A stretch of DNA of 64,000 nt from contig JAPYPR010000007.1 of assembly GCA_029937545.1 (NCBI GenBank), positions 1-64,000 on the forward strand, written 5' to 3'. The notes beneath the pieces are model-generated. The model was not told the DNA's origin. It saw nothing but the letters and a program-made list of their open reading frames with translations, and searched no databases. Both the position numbers and the translations under genes were made by a program. Positions within the stretch are counted from its first letter, which is position 1; each line of letters starts with the position of its first letter. Below, piece after piece: positions 38,034 through 42,452 of this stretch. The stretch is from Erythrobacter sp. (GTDB lineage Bacteria; Pseudomonadota; Alphaproteobacteria; Sphingomonadales; Sphingomonadaceae).

Positions 38034-38577
38034 ATGGATACCTTCTTCACCAGCGCCGAACTTCCTGCGGGTTTGCGCGGCGCTTTCGCCGAAAGCCGCA
38101 TTTCGCTGAGCCTCGCGGACGCGAAAGCGCAGGATATGCGTTTGATCGCGGTGAACCAGGCATTCTGCGACATGTCCGGCTATGGCCCGGACGAGGTTCT
38201 GGATCGCAATTGCCGCTTCCTCCAGCCGGACGAGTCCCCCGACGCCGTTCGCAAGGACATGCAGGAATTCCTCCACGATTCCGACAAGCCCCGACGGGCG
38301 TTTCGTCATTCCGAACGTTACGAAGGATGGGCGGAAATTCCTGGATCTGGTGTACATGGCGAAGCTCGAGAAAGACGATGAGGTCACATTCGTGCTCGGC
38401 TCGCAGTTTCCGATCGATCCCGACAAGGCATCCGAGCCCGATCTCTACGATCGCGCTCTCAAGGAAAGCCTGAAGCAGCTCAACCTCTTGACCGGTGACG
38501 ACAGTTGGGCACTTTTGGGCAGCTTCGACGCGCTAGCATCGAGCTATTCCATCATTGCAAGGGCAAGAATGGAATGA
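38034..38577 (+). pseudogene. LOV-domain photosensor, interrupted by a single-base frameshift
   Basis: A short LOV protein, about 180 residues if repaired. The first frame (38034-38292) gives the PAS core ISLSLADAKAQDMRLIAVNQ, FCDMSGYGPDEVL and NCRFLQ, where Cys60 is the residue that would form the flavin adduct. The rest of the domain, GRFVIPNVTKDGRKFLDLVYM and FVLGSQFPID with the flavin-contacting Gln, is read in the +1 frame. Removing one C from the CCCC run at 38289-38292 joins the two cleanly. The second-frame stop overlaps the start of the kinase (ATGA), so the downstream coupling is intact. It may be a sequencing error, a recent mutation or, less likely, programmed slippage. As it stands, translation would give a truncated 115-residue product. 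Confidence 0.8.
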
Positions 38578-41500
38578 AGGAGAGCGCACCCGCAAGCAAG
38601 CCCGCACGGTCGGGCGAATTCGCGATCGTCGGCGTGGGCGCGTCGGCTGGCGGTCTCGAGGCCCTGCGCGCCATGTTCAGCGGGTTCGACGGCCAGAGCG
38701 GCATGGCCTTCGTGGTCGTACAGCATCTCGATCCCACGCATGAATCGTTGATGGCGCAGCTGCTCGAACGCTACACGCCGATGGCCGTTAAGCAGGCAGA
38801 AGGCGGCGAACAGCTAGAACCCGACCACATCTACGTCATTCCGCCAGCCCATGGCCTGGCCGTGAAGGACGGTGTGCTCGAGCTGACAGAATTCACCGAA
38901 CAGCGCGGTATGCGCCGCCCGATCGATGATTTCTTCGAGAGCCTCGCGAAGGATCAGGGCGAACGCGCGGCTTGCGTGATCCTCTCGGGCACTGGCGCGG
39001 ACGGCAGCCGGGGGCTGCGGGCGATCAAGGAACATTCGGGTATCTGCATCGCGCAGGAACCCGACACTGCCGCCTATGACGGCATGCCGACCGCCGCGAT
39101 CGGCACCGGGCTGGTCGATATCACCTGCGATCCACGCGACACGGTCGAGCACCTGTCGAAGTTCTTCCAGCGCGCCGGCCTCGCCGATGTCGTCGAGAAC
39201 GATCTCGAGGAAGCCGATACACTGCTCGATATCTGCGATGTCCTGCGCGAAGCGGTCGGCCACGATTTTTCCAATTACAAGCGCAGCACGCTCAACCGCC
39301 GTGTCGCTCGCCGGATGCAGGTCCTCGGGATCGATGACACCAAGGCCTACCTCAAGCACCTGCAGGAGAGCGGCAACGAGTGCAGCGCATTGTTCAGCGA
39401 CTTGCTGATCAATGTCACTCGCTTCTTCCGCGACTCCGACCATTTCAAGCAACTCGAAGAGCTGGTCATTTCGCCAATGGTCAAAGAGGCCAAGAACGGC
39501 GAAGAGCTGCGGATCTGGGTGCCCGGTTGCTCCAGCGGCGAAGAAGCCTACAGCATCGCCATGCTGTTTGCGGACGCGGCCAAGCGGTTCGACAAGCGCC
39601 CTTATGTGCAGGTGTTCGCCACCGACATCGACGACAAGATGCTCGATATCGGGCGTTCGGGCGTCTACCCGCTCTCATCGCTTCAGGACATTCCCAAGCA
39701 ATTCCAGGATGAGTACATCTATGGAAGCAAGGAGAAGTTCACGATCGCGCCGCAGATCAGGGACATCGTGAGCTTCAGCGTCCACAACCTCGTGCGCGAT
39801 CCGCCTTATTCCGAAATCGATCTCGTCGCCTGCCGCAACGTCCTGATCTATTTCGACGATGCGTTGCAGAAGCTGGTGTTCCCGCTGTTCCATTTCTCCA
39901 CGCGTGAGAGCGGCTACCTGTTCCTTGGCTCTTCGGAAACGATCGGTCTGCACGAGGACCTGTTCGAGTCCATCGACCAGTCGGCGCGCATTTTCCGGCG
40001 CAAGAACGTAAAAGGCAACTACACGCTCAATCTGGCCAGCGATGTGTCGCGGCAGATAAATCGCAGCAGGCAGAGGTCTAACAGGGAAGAAGTCACGCGT
40101 CGCGGCGGTGTGGAGCTCCGCGCGCTGGAGAAGCTGGCGCAGCGTTACTCGCCCGTCAGCCTGTTGCTCGATCGCGAGGCCATGCTGCTCGAACGCTGGG
40201 GGTCCGCAGGACGCTATCTCGATTTTCCCGAGCGGCTCGAACGTTCGATCCACGTACCCTCGCTCGCCCGACCGGGCCTGCGCGAACTTATCGGGCCGAT
40301 GATCCGCCAGGTCTCGAACACCGGACGCCGCACAATCGTGAAAGAGGTCGAGATCGTGACCGATCTCGGCACGCTGGAGGCGACCGTCGTCTGCGAGCCG
40401 ATCGACAACCAGACCTTCCTGTTCGTCGTAAACGAGACCCGCGGCCTCGAACCGGACACTGGCGACGATTACGACGAATTCGATCCCGAAGACGGCCAGC
40501 GACAATTCCTCGAAGAGGAACTGCAAGCGACCAGGCATCGCCTGCGTTCCACAGTCGAGGAACTGGAGACGACCAACGAAGAGCTGAAGAGCTCCAACGA
40601 AGAAATGATGTCGATGAACGAGGAGCTCCAATCTACCAACGAGGAGCTGACGACCGTCAACGACGAACTGAAGAACAAGGTCGACCAGTTGACCACGGCA
40701 AATGCCGATCTCAAGAACTTCTTCGACAGCACCAAGCTGGCGGTTCTGGTCGTGGATCAAGACCTCAAGCTGCGAAGCTTTACCGATGCAGCCGAGGACC
40801 TGTTCCCGCTGACGAAGGAGCACATCGGGCGACCGCTCGCCACTTTGCCGCACAATCTCGACGATGATCATTTCGTCGAAATGGCGAAGAGTGCTGCCAA
40901 ACAGGGATTGCAGGTCGAAGAAGGGATGCATTCCCGTGCGCTGGATCGCGAGCTGGTGCTTCAGGCGATCCCCTATCGCCTTCTCGATGGCGAGCTCGAC
41001 GGCGCGACACTGATCTTCACCGATGTTTCCGAAACGCTGTCGCTCGAACGGGACCTGCGCGAGGAACGCGAGCGGCTGCGGCTCGCACTGGAGGTCGCAA
41101 AGATCGGCGTTTGGGAGTACGAACCCTCCACCGACAAGACATTGCTGGACGCGGCCGAACGCAATCTTTTCGACCTCGACGAGAACGATCCCGGCGACAG
41201 AATGGAGCCGATCATGGCCTCGCTGCCGCCTGAGGATCGCGACCGCGTCAATCGTGCGTTGCGCATGGCAATGGAAGGCAAGAGCGATTTCGATGAGGTC
41301 TTCCGTCTGCCGCTCGAAAGTGGCGAAACGCGCCACCTCCACGGGCTCGGCAAGCTGATCGACATTTCCGGCACACGAAAACTCGTGGGCGTTACCTTCG
41401 ATGTTTCCGCCGATCACAAATTGCTCGATCAGCGCGAGTTGATGATCCGCGAGATGAACCACCGGGTGAAGAACCTGTTTTCGGTCATCTCGGCCATGGT

Positions 41501-42008
41501 CTCGATCGCCGCGCGCGATGCCGACGATGTCGCCACATTTGCAGAGGGTTTGCGTGATCGCATCCACGCGCTCGGCCGCTCGCATTCGCTCACCAACGAG
41601 GCCGGCGACGCGGCCGACGGCGGGATCCCGCTATCCAGGCTGGTAGACACGGTCTTGCGGCCCAATCTCGCCGGTCAGAAGGTCGATATGTCCGGCCCCG
41701 ACACAACCATCCGAAACGACAAGATCACCTCGATCGCGCTGATCCTGCATGAATGGGCGACCAATTCGACCAAGTACGGAGCGCTAGCAACCCGCGACGG
41801 TTCGATCGACATAAGTTGGATTGATCAGGATGGCGAAGTCGCAATCGACTGGCGGGAAGACGGTCAGGCACCGGTTGACAAGGTCGACAGCGGCCCGGGC
41901 TTCGGTACGAAGCTTGTTCAAACCGCTGCGCGCCAGCTTCGCGGGGAAGCCAGCGGCGATGCAATCGAAGGCGGTTATCGCCGGACTTTGAAGTTCCCGA
42001 CCCAATAA
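38574..42008 (+). CDS. CheB-CheR-PAS-HWE hybrid sensor kinase
   Basis: A 1144-residue cytosolic protein joining chemotaxis-type enzymes to a kinase. Residues about 15-200 form a CheB methylesterase-like domain with its triad: Ser24 in GVGASAGGLEAL, His in VVVQHLDPTH and Asp in LSGTGADGSRG. About 220-490 is a CheR methyltransferase with PGCSSGEEAYSIAML and FATDIDDKML. A coiled coil rich in EELxxxNEEL repeats (about 645-725) leads to two PAS regions, then an HWE/HisKA_2 kinase with His963 in REMNHRVKNLFSVI and the N box HEWATNSTKYGAL. It starts within the stop of the LOV gene (ATG at 38574). It has no membrane segment. It converges with the receiver gene 10 bp away. Confidence 0.92.
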   Translation: MKESAPASKPARSGEFAIVGVGASAGGLEALRAMFSGFDGQSGMAFVVVQHLDPTHESLMAQLLERYTPMAVKQAEGGEQLEPDHIYVIPPAHGLAVKDGVLELTEFTEQRGMRRPIDDFFESLAKDQGERAACVILSGTGADGSRGLRAIKEHSGICIAQEPDTAAYDGMPTAAIGTGLVDITCDPRDTVEHLSKFFQRAGLADVVENDLEEADTLLDICDVLREAVGHDFSNYKRSTLNRRVARRMQVLGIDDTKAYLKHLQESGNECSALFSDLLINVTRFFRDSDHFKQLEELVISPMVKEAKNGEELRIWVPGCSSGEEAYSIAMLFADAAKRFDKRPYVQVFATDIDDKMLDIGRSGVYPLSSLQDIPKQFQDEYIYGSKEKFTIAPQIRDIVSFSVHNLVRDPPYSEIDLVACRNVLIYFDDALQKLVFPLFHFSTRESGYLFLGSSETIGLHEDLFESIDQSARIFRRKNVKGNYTLNLASDVSRQINRSRQRSNREEVTRRGGVELRALEKLAQRYSPVSLLLDREAMLLERWGSAGRYLDFPERLERSIHVPSLARPGLRELIGPMIRQVSNTGRRTIVKEVEIVTDLGTLEATVVCEPIDNQTFLFVVNETRGLEPDTGDDYDEFDPEDGQRQFLEEELQATRHRLRSTVEELETTNEELKSSNEEMMSMNEELQSTNEELTTVNDELKNKVDQLTTANADLKNFFDSTKLAVLVVDQDLKLRSFTDAAEDLFPLTKEHIGRPLATLPHNLDDDHFVEMAKSAAKQGLQVEEGMHSRALDRELVLQAIPYRLLDGELDGATLIFTDVSETLSLERDLREERERLRLALEVAKIGVWEYEPSTDKTLLDAAERNLFDLDENDPGDRMEPIMASLPPEDRDRVNRALRMAMEGKSDFDEVFRLPLESGETRHLHGLGKLIDISGTRKLVGVTFDVSADHKLLDQRELMIREMNHRVKNLFSVISAMVSIAARDADDVATFAEGLRDRIHALGRSHSLTNEAGDAADGGIPLSRLVDTVLRPNLAGQKVDMSGPDTTIRNDKITSIALILHEWATNSTKYGALATRDGSIDISWIDQDGEVAIDWREDGQAPVDKVDSGPGFGTKLVQTAARQLRGEASGDAIEGGYRRTLKFPTQ

Positions 42009-42384: not shown

Positions 42385-42426
42385 CAGGACGACTTTTAAC
42401 CTTATCCCGCCTTATCGTGTGGACCG

Positions 42427-42452
42427 AACGGCCCAGTCCCAAAAACCGTTCC
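42427..42452 (-). promoter_or_regulatory. Sigma-EcfG-type promoter for the receiver gene
   Basis: On the reverse strand GGAAC (42452-42448), a 17-base spacer and CGTT (42430-42427) match the general-stress sigma factor consensus GGAAC-N16/17-CGTT of alphaproteobacteria. The -10 end is about 43 bp before the receiver ATG at 42384, leaving a 5' leader of roughly 35 bases. I looked for GGAAC/CGTT pairs in the other intergenic regions and saw no other full match. Confidence 0.65.

Follow-up and report, generated by a model that had tools for sequence, protein, structure and literature searches.

The LOV, kinase and receiver genes described here form a real unit, a trio that is not special to the genome in which we found it and is widespread across many marine and related bacteria. 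We lean towards reading the trio as a blue-light two-component system in which the photoreceptor is a protein of its own. The stretch analysed, hereafter the window, comprises 64,000 nt of an Erythrobacter sp. contig (JAPYPR010000007.1), and its relevant features are as follows.

37888–37963, plus strand: tRNA-Thr (tgt) found by ARAGORN, just 5′ of the LOV gene, for context
38034–38381, plus strand: first frame of the short LOV gene, 115 aa as read, with its LOV-like part at 38034–38300 and including NCRFLQ
38281–38577, plus strand: second frame of the same LOV gene, with the end of the LOV core including GSQ and the conserved LASSxSIIA tail
38575–38577, plus strand: stop codon TGA of the second LOV frame, overlapping the kinase ATG at 38574 as ATGA
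38574–42008, plus strand: CheB–CheR–PAS–coil–PAS–PAS–HWE histidine kinase, 1,144 aa (ORF and Pfam)
38628–39143, plus strand: CheB methylesterase domain (CheB_methylest), aa 19–190 (Pfam)
39231–39983, plus strand: CheR_N and CheR methyltransferase, aa 220–470 (Pfam)
40107–40436, plus strand: PAS-like fold missed by Pfam, aa 512–621 (structure models; Foldseek)
40485–40727, plus strand: single long helix or coiled coil, aa 638–718, with five Glu-Glu pairs at a spacing of seven residues
40710–41027, plus strand: PAS_10 domain, aa 713–818 (Pfam)
41163–41390, plus strand: PAS_3-like domain, aa 864–939 (Pfam, 25.3 bits, just below the cut-off of 25.6)
41451–41702, plus strand: HWE_HK domain with His963 (codon 41460–41462; Pfam, alignment)
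42019–42384, minus strand: receiver-only protein, 121 aa, with Response_reg as its sole Pfam domain
42427–42452, minus strand: EcfG-type promoter-like site GGAAC-N17-CGTT, upstream of the receiver and reading from 42452 to 42427

Much of this layout had been proposed in an earlier, sequence-only reading of the window. The ORF at 38574–42008 and its Pfam domains confirm the 1,144-aa CheB–CheR–PAS–HWE kinase, and the facing receiver-only protein (42019–42384, minus strand) preceded by GGAAC-N17-CGTT (42452–42427) is present as described. The LOV, kinase and receiver genes are indeed separate and adjacent; LOV and HWE kinase occupy separate ORFs, both in the window and at the loci with this kinase that were read, and are not fused in one polypeptide as in LovK. 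The proposed ATGA overlap between the LOV and kinase genes also stands, but its TGA belongs to a second frame of the LOV gene. A candidate LOV–kinase fusion in another genome (G225, reported as an open frame of 1,379 aa) was rejected, with a TGA found between LOV and kinase in the DNA.

The LOV gene region extends overall from 38034 to 38577, with the ORF from 38034 closing at 38381, and the LOV profile matches in two different frames (38034–38300 and 38281–38574) separated by a frameshift near 38288, one additional base relative to the nearest relative. The LOV sensor gene thus appears broken in this genome; it is intact in the nearest relatives. Because dN/dS against the nearest relative is low on both sides of the break (about 0.05 before and 0.065 after) and close to that of the kinase (0.057 over its first 2.9 kb), the break is of very recent origin or else reflects an assembly or sequencing error, and the pathway in this genome may have lost its sensor or may only seem to have done so. 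We give real weight, if less than an even chance, to the pathway decaying in this species, with the LOV gene a fresh pseudogene, the kinase light-blind and the receiver kept for other stress kinases. The frameshift points this way, as do two genomes that keep the receiver and its site while kinase and LOV gene are broken or mostly deleted (G032, loci L026 and L125; G086, locus L141); pointing the other way, amino-acid changes show no clear excess on either side of the break, the kinase ORF is intact, and the draft assembly consists of 105 contigs, so that a base error is possible. Retention of the receiver and site in those two genomes means that the receiver probably serves other kinases too.

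Across 17 intact genus relatives, the short LOV protein is 180–188 aa long, and C60, N94, N104 and Q124 are invariant in all 17 copies. We take the cysteine of NCRFLQ to be the photoactive cysteine and N94, N104 and Q124 to be flavin-contact residues in these proteins; with these motifs in place, flavin binding is predicted. PAS_9 is the sole Pfam domain of the LOV protein L008, and a stand-alone LOV domain with terminal extensions and no effector domain has the make-up of a short LOV photoreceptor, the window's copy being frame-broken. In a wider set, NCRF[LM] is present in 55 of 57 LOV proteins and absent from L142 and L151.

Several lines of evidence support the trio as a unit. First, the sequence-only reading had named a lack of conservation in relatives as grounds for abandoning its proposed pathway, and the trio is conserved: of the 37 congeneric genomes sampled, the same 19 have both the short LOV and the full kinase. 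The two genes are adjacent in 19 of 19 (within a single locus in 18, on the same contig in G012), and the receiver adjoins the kinase in 18. The 18 genus loci sit among 7 upstream and 7 downstream flank groups. Second, this LOV is present in 19 of 298 family genomes drawn, and all 19 have the kinase next door: directly in 14 (one of them truncated by a contig end), at a distance of 0.6–0.9 kb in 4 and as a remnant in 1. Third, Rhodobacterales also hold the trio, in tandem and divergent arrangements. Relatives in which the trio is intact include Erythrobacter vulgaris (L042), Sagittula marina (L045) and G035. Among the best 36 kinase places in the family of Sagittula marina (394 genomes), 21 have an adjoining LOV (9 tandem, 12 divergent), and no LOV was found in the fetched stretch at 15. 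A full-length or near-full related kinase without LOV occurs in G257, which belongs to the same genus outside the 37, and in G065, and the adjacent receiver is absent in G009 and four Croceicoccus-type loci; in the wider kinase searches no more than two candidates were scored for each genome, so that absence of a kinase there is not proof. A tRNA was found in 9 of the 18 genus loci, giving few independent cases for insertion at a tRNA site.

This co-occurrence and adjacency, with position-conserved sites in relatives, already contradict the view that the genes are chance neighbours and the GGAAC site noise, which is highly improbable even though the site's consensus is no commoner than a reversed control in this genome. 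The LOV protein might instead act on something other than the large kinase, for instance through competition with the genome's separate LOV–HWE kinase, its adjacency reflecting genes that travel together. The same genome does encode that second LOV protein (G000:C93), and fungi show competition between LOV proteins, as reported in an excerpt of PMC4416707. However, the exact co-occurrence in the 37 sampled genomes, the pair's persistence across 7 flank groups and its recurrence in two arrangements and two kinase clades make action elsewhere improbable.

Phylogenies bear on how the pair has moved. Two groups that cross family lines, the Sagittula group and Croceicoccus with G584, cluster in both the kinase and LOV trees, as joint LOV–kinase transfer predicts. 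Support for Croceicoccus with G584 is just 87/34 in the LOV tree, and the exact placement of the Sagittula group differs between the two trees. LOV and kinase distances correlate with r = 0.876, a value confounded by species descent. In the LOV tree, the window's tandem-type LOV falls in a separate clade from the divergent type. Left out before tree building were L042 (same contig as L013) and L134 (same as L044), together with L129, L025, L026, L141, L158 and L177 (incomplete, disrupted or lacking an HWE match); the LOV tree also excludes L007. Linkage and joint transfer do not amount to LOV–kinase interaction.

RsLOV of Rhodobacter sphaeroides, DsLOV and the LOV proteins described here are alike in being short LOVs without an effector. 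A divergent-type LOV, L166, matches RsLOV entries 4hj4/4hnb and 4hj6 over residues 1–175, its whole length (E about 4e-92), and its gene lies divergently next to a kinase of this type and a receiver. Because this RsLOV-matching protein adjoins such a kinase, the CheB–CheR–HWE family is the likely partner of RsLOV, a crystallised short LOV whose partner, like that of DsLOV, is given as still unidentified as of 2022 in an excerpt of PMC9758184. The same excerpt describes how PmSB-LOV of Pseudomonas mendocina signals to PmlR2, the product of a neighbouring gene, presented there as the first partner to be found for a short LOV from bacteria. The trio is similar in placing a short LOV beside a candidate partner gene and differs in that PmlR2 is a MerR-type regulator whereas the partner here would be a kinase. 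RsLOV affects photosynthesis genes, according to portions of PMC4844311 and PMC4335406; by contrast, reaction-centre genes (Photo_RC) occur in just 2 of the 19 genus trio genomes and not in the window's own genome, and a photosynthesis link is not supported. Short LOV proteins have had their structures solved and are used as tools, and a conserved, transferable trio names a specific candidate partner for a stand-alone short LOV. Our literature searches recognised no description of a short LOV with a CheB–CheR kinase, earlier mention in the original RsLOV papers being possible.

The window's tandem-type LOV is only distantly RsLOV-like. RsLOV was rejected as its nearest relative: in a single-sequence search with L008, 7ob0 (E 1.1e-16) is closely followed by EL222 (5.3e-16), with RsLOV entries lower (about 1e-12). 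A profile search also places 7ob0 first (1.8e-25), with EL222 at 1.3e-22 and RsLOV entries at about 4e-22. From its near-identity with the RsLOV entries, we read 7ob0 as an RsLOV variant.

The kinase scores 55.5 bits for HWE_HK (PF07536; cut-off 22.8), and H963, HEWATN and WxE, which mark it as an HWE kinase, are invariant across 18 genus kinases; in a wider set of 76, the strict H-box pattern is missed in 16 and the N-box pattern in 8. Its HWE part matches 6ph4, a blue-light-activated histidine kinase. The CheB Ser-His-Asp and CheR SAM-binding motifs are likewise invariant across the 18 kinases; we take these residues to be catalytic and SAM-binding, and, with the motifs of adaptation enzymes present, enzyme activity is predicted. 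By pattern, the 44 tandem-type kinases retain CheB Ser in 44, His in 43 and Asp in 44, and CheR GCSSGEE in 44. The GCSSGEE pattern is missed in 11 of 14 divergent-type kinases, and the Pfam CheR score is still 164 bits in the divergent-type L157 and L166.

Between CheR and PAS_10 lie the two elements that Pfam leaves blank. For the hidden PAS fold (aa 512–621 of a predicted model), most of the hits that Foldseek listed are PAS domains (best E 6e-4); taken as a whole, the full-length kinase model is poor (pTM 0.33). The coil that follows is nearly invariant, and its Glu pairs, scored against the methyl-acceptor consensus, are methyl-acceptor-like. A plain permutation control of this motif takes no account of coiled-coil periodicity; a second control, 71 coil-like windows from other proteins in the fetched loci, gave 5 single matches and none with two or more. 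The hidden PAS and Glu-pair coil suggest that the CheR and CheB domains may tune their own kinase, whose coil is the best candidate substrate. Alternatively, LOV and kinase might mainly steer CheB and CheR in modifying chemoreceptors in trans, so that light biases chemotaxis and the receiver is a mere phosphate sink. The genome has four MCP-type matches, two of which have a CheR-like match roughly 3 kb away, and the retention of CheB and CheR patterns in tandem-type kinases fits such a role; but the candidate substrate within the kinase itself and the EcfG-type sites before the receiver in half of the convergent loci make it unlikely.

Going further, the trio could both supply the partner system so far missing for RsLOV-type and related short LOVs and adapt itself, a combination that we regard as doubtful. 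Driven by light, LOV would dock on a PAS domain of the large kinase, the kinase's own CheR and CheB would methylate and demethylate the coil Glu pairs, and the coil would be the joint between CheR/CheB and the PAS–HWE output. Such a protein would be a light–stress switch with built-in, chemotaxis-style memory in one soluble molecule; no description of in-cis methylation of such a coil was recognised in literature searches.

In the receiver, the DDE pocket, LDID (Asp53), FxSAN and KP are invariant among 18 aligned sequences. Its best structure match is 2lpm, with SdrG (5ieb) among the best matches. We take 2lpm to be Sma0114, partner of an HWE kinase; Sma0113 reportedly pairs with it. The protein resembles Sma0114, SdrG and MrrA, the last described in an excerpt as a stress hub, in being receiver-only, and is unlike them in being linked to a specific LOV–kinase pair.

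The site before the receiver, GGAAC-N17-CGTT, is the single match in the 64-kb window (0.46 expected) and fits the EcfG consensus as printed in an excerpt of PMC12148442. It also conforms to the wider EcfG-regulon consensus, GGAAC-N16-17-[CG]GTT, which has a second window match at 60597 on the plus strand. Genome-wide, this wider consensus has 78 matches versus 86 for the reversed pattern and is not enriched, so that a single site is weak by itself and the evidence lies in its conservation in relatives. EcfG-type sites precede 16 of 33 convergent receivers (13 strict, 3 with AGTT), with GGAAC beginning 48–93 nt before the receiver domain, against 0 of 33 and 0 of 31 in controls. The strict site is absent before 20 of the 33, and 17 lack even the looser one, the sister clade L017–L024 among them. 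The count was limited to convergent receivers, with same-strand loci removed; a site at fixed distance in many divergent-type loci, seen in a first scan, was rejected because it falls inside kinase codons, which in most of these loci encode a conserved W-[EN]-P-x-G-L. The window's own genome also has GGAAC-N16-[CG]GTT sites in front of nepR-ecfG, phyR and a neighbouring HWE kinase. The stress-promoter receiver of the earlier reading therefore holds as a conserved, EcfG-consensus-like site, but in part of the family only, and there its conservation makes a tie between receiver and general stress response plausible.

From the observed linkage, co-occurrence, signs of joint transfer and conserved motifs, we infer the following molecular steps for the two-component system. 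The short LOV would bind flavin, sense blue light and act in trans on the adjacent kinase, most likely through a LOV–PAS contact; LOV–kinase coupling is the part that we hold with most confidence. The kinase would autophosphorylate at His963 and hand the phosphate to Asp53 of the convergent receiver, a transfer that we consider quite probable. Slightly less securely, the receiver in this branch is likely also produced under the stress sigma factor EcfG. It would then work between light input and the general stress response as a feedback relay or a sink, and for an effect on that response we judge the chances even. If this is correct, CheB/CheR chemistry would be usable outside chemoreceptor arrays, and relatives that are largely non-phototrophic would have a second light input to their stress network.

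Two sets of LOV kinases offer the closest comparisons. The LovK kinase of Caulobacter is reportedly HWE-type. LovK–LovR of Caulobacter crescentus, as outlined in part of PMC4844311, combines LOV light input, a single-domain receiver and a sigma-T stress link. The trio shares with it LOV input, an HWE-type kinase, a single-domain receiver and a plausible link to the stress response; unlike LovK, in which LOV is fused to the kinase, the LOV here is separate, and the kinase adds CheB, CheR and PAS domains and a long coil. EL346, EL362 and EL368 of the related bacterium Erythrobacter litoralis are HWE/HisKA2 LOV kinases tied to the general stress response in an excerpt of PMC10359499. They are of the same kinase class as the kinase here but have LOV fused to the kinase, without CheB or CheR. 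A protein of the EL346 kind is also present in this genome, at another place.

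The three genes lie next to one another in the window:

38034–38300 and 38281–38574, upstream of the kinase: LOV gene in two frames, each a partial match to the LOV profile
38574–42008: kinase ORF with CheB, CheR_N, CheR and PAS_10, a PAS_3-like stretch and HWE_HK
42019–42384, minus strand: receiver gene, with one receiver domain and no other

The receiver-only protein that the sequence-only reading had placed beside the kinase is borne out. The ATGA overlap that it noted between LOV and kinase is present in the window, where the TGA belongs to the second LOV frame, and also in the closest relative, G035 (locus L008), in which an intact LOV gene of 180 aa overlaps the kinase start by its stop. 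Comparison with L008 reveals one additional base in the window near 38288. Against L008, dN/dS is ~0.05 before the break and 0.065 after it, and the kinase gives 0.057 over its initial 2.9 kb. Either selection acted on the post-break frame until very recently, therefore, or this 105-contig draft assembly is in error at the break. The window's own genome encodes a second LOV protein, a conventional LOV–HWE kinase of 377 aa (G000:C93, L123:1671–2804, minus strand).

The LOV–kinase–receiver unit holds together across changing flanks. Among 37 sampled genomes of the genus, the window's own (G000) included, 19 hold a kinase orthologue, with one further broken copy in G032, and exactly those 19 hold the short LOV (G000 being counted from two half-matches). 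The two genes adjoin in all 19, 18 within one fetched locus and G012 on one small contig; a receiver orthologue is present in 18 of the 19 (all except G009) and in G032, as expected if the gene order were shared by relatives. Across 18 genus loci the upstream flanks form 7 groups and the downstream flanks 7; the unit therefore persists while its surroundings vary. G257, a genome of the genus that is not among the 37, encodes a related kinase but no LOV beside it. A tRNA gene (Thr, Val or Leu) is found in 9 of the 18 loci (L007–L024; window 37888–37963), hinting that tRNA sites serve as targets when the unit moves.

EcfG-consensus sites accompany nepR–ecfG, phyR and neighbouring HWE kinase genes in the window's own genome (nepR called by Pfam PF18557; ecfG and phyR assigned from their position and sequence). 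A figure legend in PMC12148442 gives this consensus as GGAAC-N16-17-C/GGTT. Across the 50 loci scanned, the receiver is convergent in 33 and same-strand in 10, with none found in 7. The predicted stress promoter before the receiver stands for part of the unit's range: GGAAC-N16-18-GTT occurs in 16 of the 33 convergent loci, its GGAAC 48–93 nt ahead of the receiver domain (13 are strict matches to the consensus; L014, L126 and L128 have AGTT), but no EcfG-type site was found before the receiver in the sister clade L017–L024. The same looser pattern gave 0/33 in reversed controls and 0/31 before LOV; genome-wide, the EcfG consensus is not enriched (78 matches versus 86 for the reversed control). 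In G032 (L026, L125) and G086 (L141), the LOV and kinase genes are broken or mostly gone, and the receiver and its GGAAC site are kept; the receiver, then, probably works with other kinases as well.

From linkage, conservation and promoter-like sites, we infer every molecular step of the most likely pathway: light would alter the LOV protein, which would act on the kinase in trans; from there phosphate would pass to the receiver, which would feed or drain the stress network; and in the window's branch EcfG would raise the receiver level.

Within the kinase, Pfam calls no domain between CheR and the coil (aa 638–718). For this stretch, a model with mean pLDDT 75.5, highest between residues 50 and 150, shows strands and helices arranged in the PAS order; PAS domains predominate among the Foldseek matches listed (best E 6e-4). 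A nine-sequence model of the whole kinase, whose overall fold is uncertain (pTM 0.33), has the same element at aa 512–621 (window 40107–40436), a predicted PAS-like domain missed by Pfam, and a single low-confidence helix at aa 638–718.

Of the regions compared across 76 proteins, this coil is the best conserved (mean identity 0.78; overall mean 0.55, CheB 0.67, CheR 0.63), and its Glu–Glu pairs recur every seven residues. The consensus for methyl acceptors, [ASTG]xx[EQ][EQ]xx[ASTG][ASTG], matches the window kinase three times (permutation mean 0.058; 0/20,000 reach three), 244 of its 269 matches in the 76 proteins lie within the coil, and 0/71 coil-like windows of other proteins have two or more. 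On these grounds we propose that the kinase's CheR and CheB domains may modify its own coil. Counting against this, a strict CheR pattern is missing in 11 of 14 divergent-type kinases, although the Pfam CheR score is still good in the two checked. Three related CheB–CheR proteins without an HWE match (L179, L180, L182) also have the coil.

At family level, 298 genomes drawn evenly include 19 with a window-type LOV (E ≤ 1e-30), and the kinase is alongside in all: directly in 14 (G305 cut by a contig end), across 0.6–0.9 kb in four (G178, G237, G280, G316), and as a remnant in G086. At the two loci checked, L044 (Croceicoccus gelatinilyticus, 7480–8250) and L146 (G584, 3629–4369), a Crp-type regulator is encoded between LOV and kinase and no receiver adjoining the kinase was found; perhaps that branch has a different output. 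Searching those 298 genomes for the kinase put 19 above 1200 bits, of which 17 have the LOV; G257 and G065, without LOV, retain a same-strand receiver. The tandem-type LOV proteins at L142 and L151 have no NCRF[LM] motif and are possibly light-insensitive members.

A scan of named genomes extends the pairing to Rhodobacterales: the kinase adjoins LOV at 8 of the best 80 LOV loci (L042–L047, L049, L069), including loci of Sagittula, Thioclava, Loktanella and Frigidibacter. At the 36 top-ranked kinase places across 394 genomes from the Sagittula marina family, two of which are L045 and L046, a tandem LOV lies upstream in 9 and a divergent LOV is present in 12, with none found for 15 in the stretch fetched, some stretches being shortened by contig ends. 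One LOV-less CheB–CheR–PAS–HWE kinase adjoins a bacteriophytochrome–HWE–receiver protein (L155:8138–10687, minus strand), a possible red-light version of the system; at L160:1671–3886, a LOV-less divergent-clade kinase adjoins a B12-binding gene and a PAS–PAS–HTH_8 gene that resembles PpsR.

In a quick-method kinase tree of 76 proteins, 44 tandem-LOV kinases fall within one 49-row group and 14 divergent-LOV kinases within an 18-row group; the LOV tree splits likewise, its 14 divergent LOVs together at 100/100. Both trees place the Sagittula group among Erythrobacteraceae rows, at differing branching points, and G584 with Croceicoccus (LOV-tree support 87/34), which suggests joint transfer of the LOV and kinase genes.

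HWE kinases under light control are already known, as are short LOVs; as far as our searches show, the pairing of a short LOV with a dedicated CheB–CheR–PAS–HWE kinase is a new variant, with no earlier description found in the literature searched. The likeness to RsLOV, read from the L166 locus rather than the R. sphaeroides genome, concerns the divergent type: the L166 LOV (176 aa) lies ~70 bp from a 1170-aa CheB–CheR–PAS–HWE kinase, followed by a receiver, and matches PDB 4hj4/4hnb and 4hj6 over residues 1–175 (E about 4e-92), with 83% identity to the aligned stretch of 7ob0 (148 residues). PMC4335406 attributes 4HNB and HJ6 to the RsLOV protein of R. sphaeroides, and PMC9758184 states that no binding partners had been identified for PpSB1, PpSB2, RsLOV and DsLOV. 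The window LOV type forms a clade apart from the divergent type, about equally near EL222 and RsLOV.
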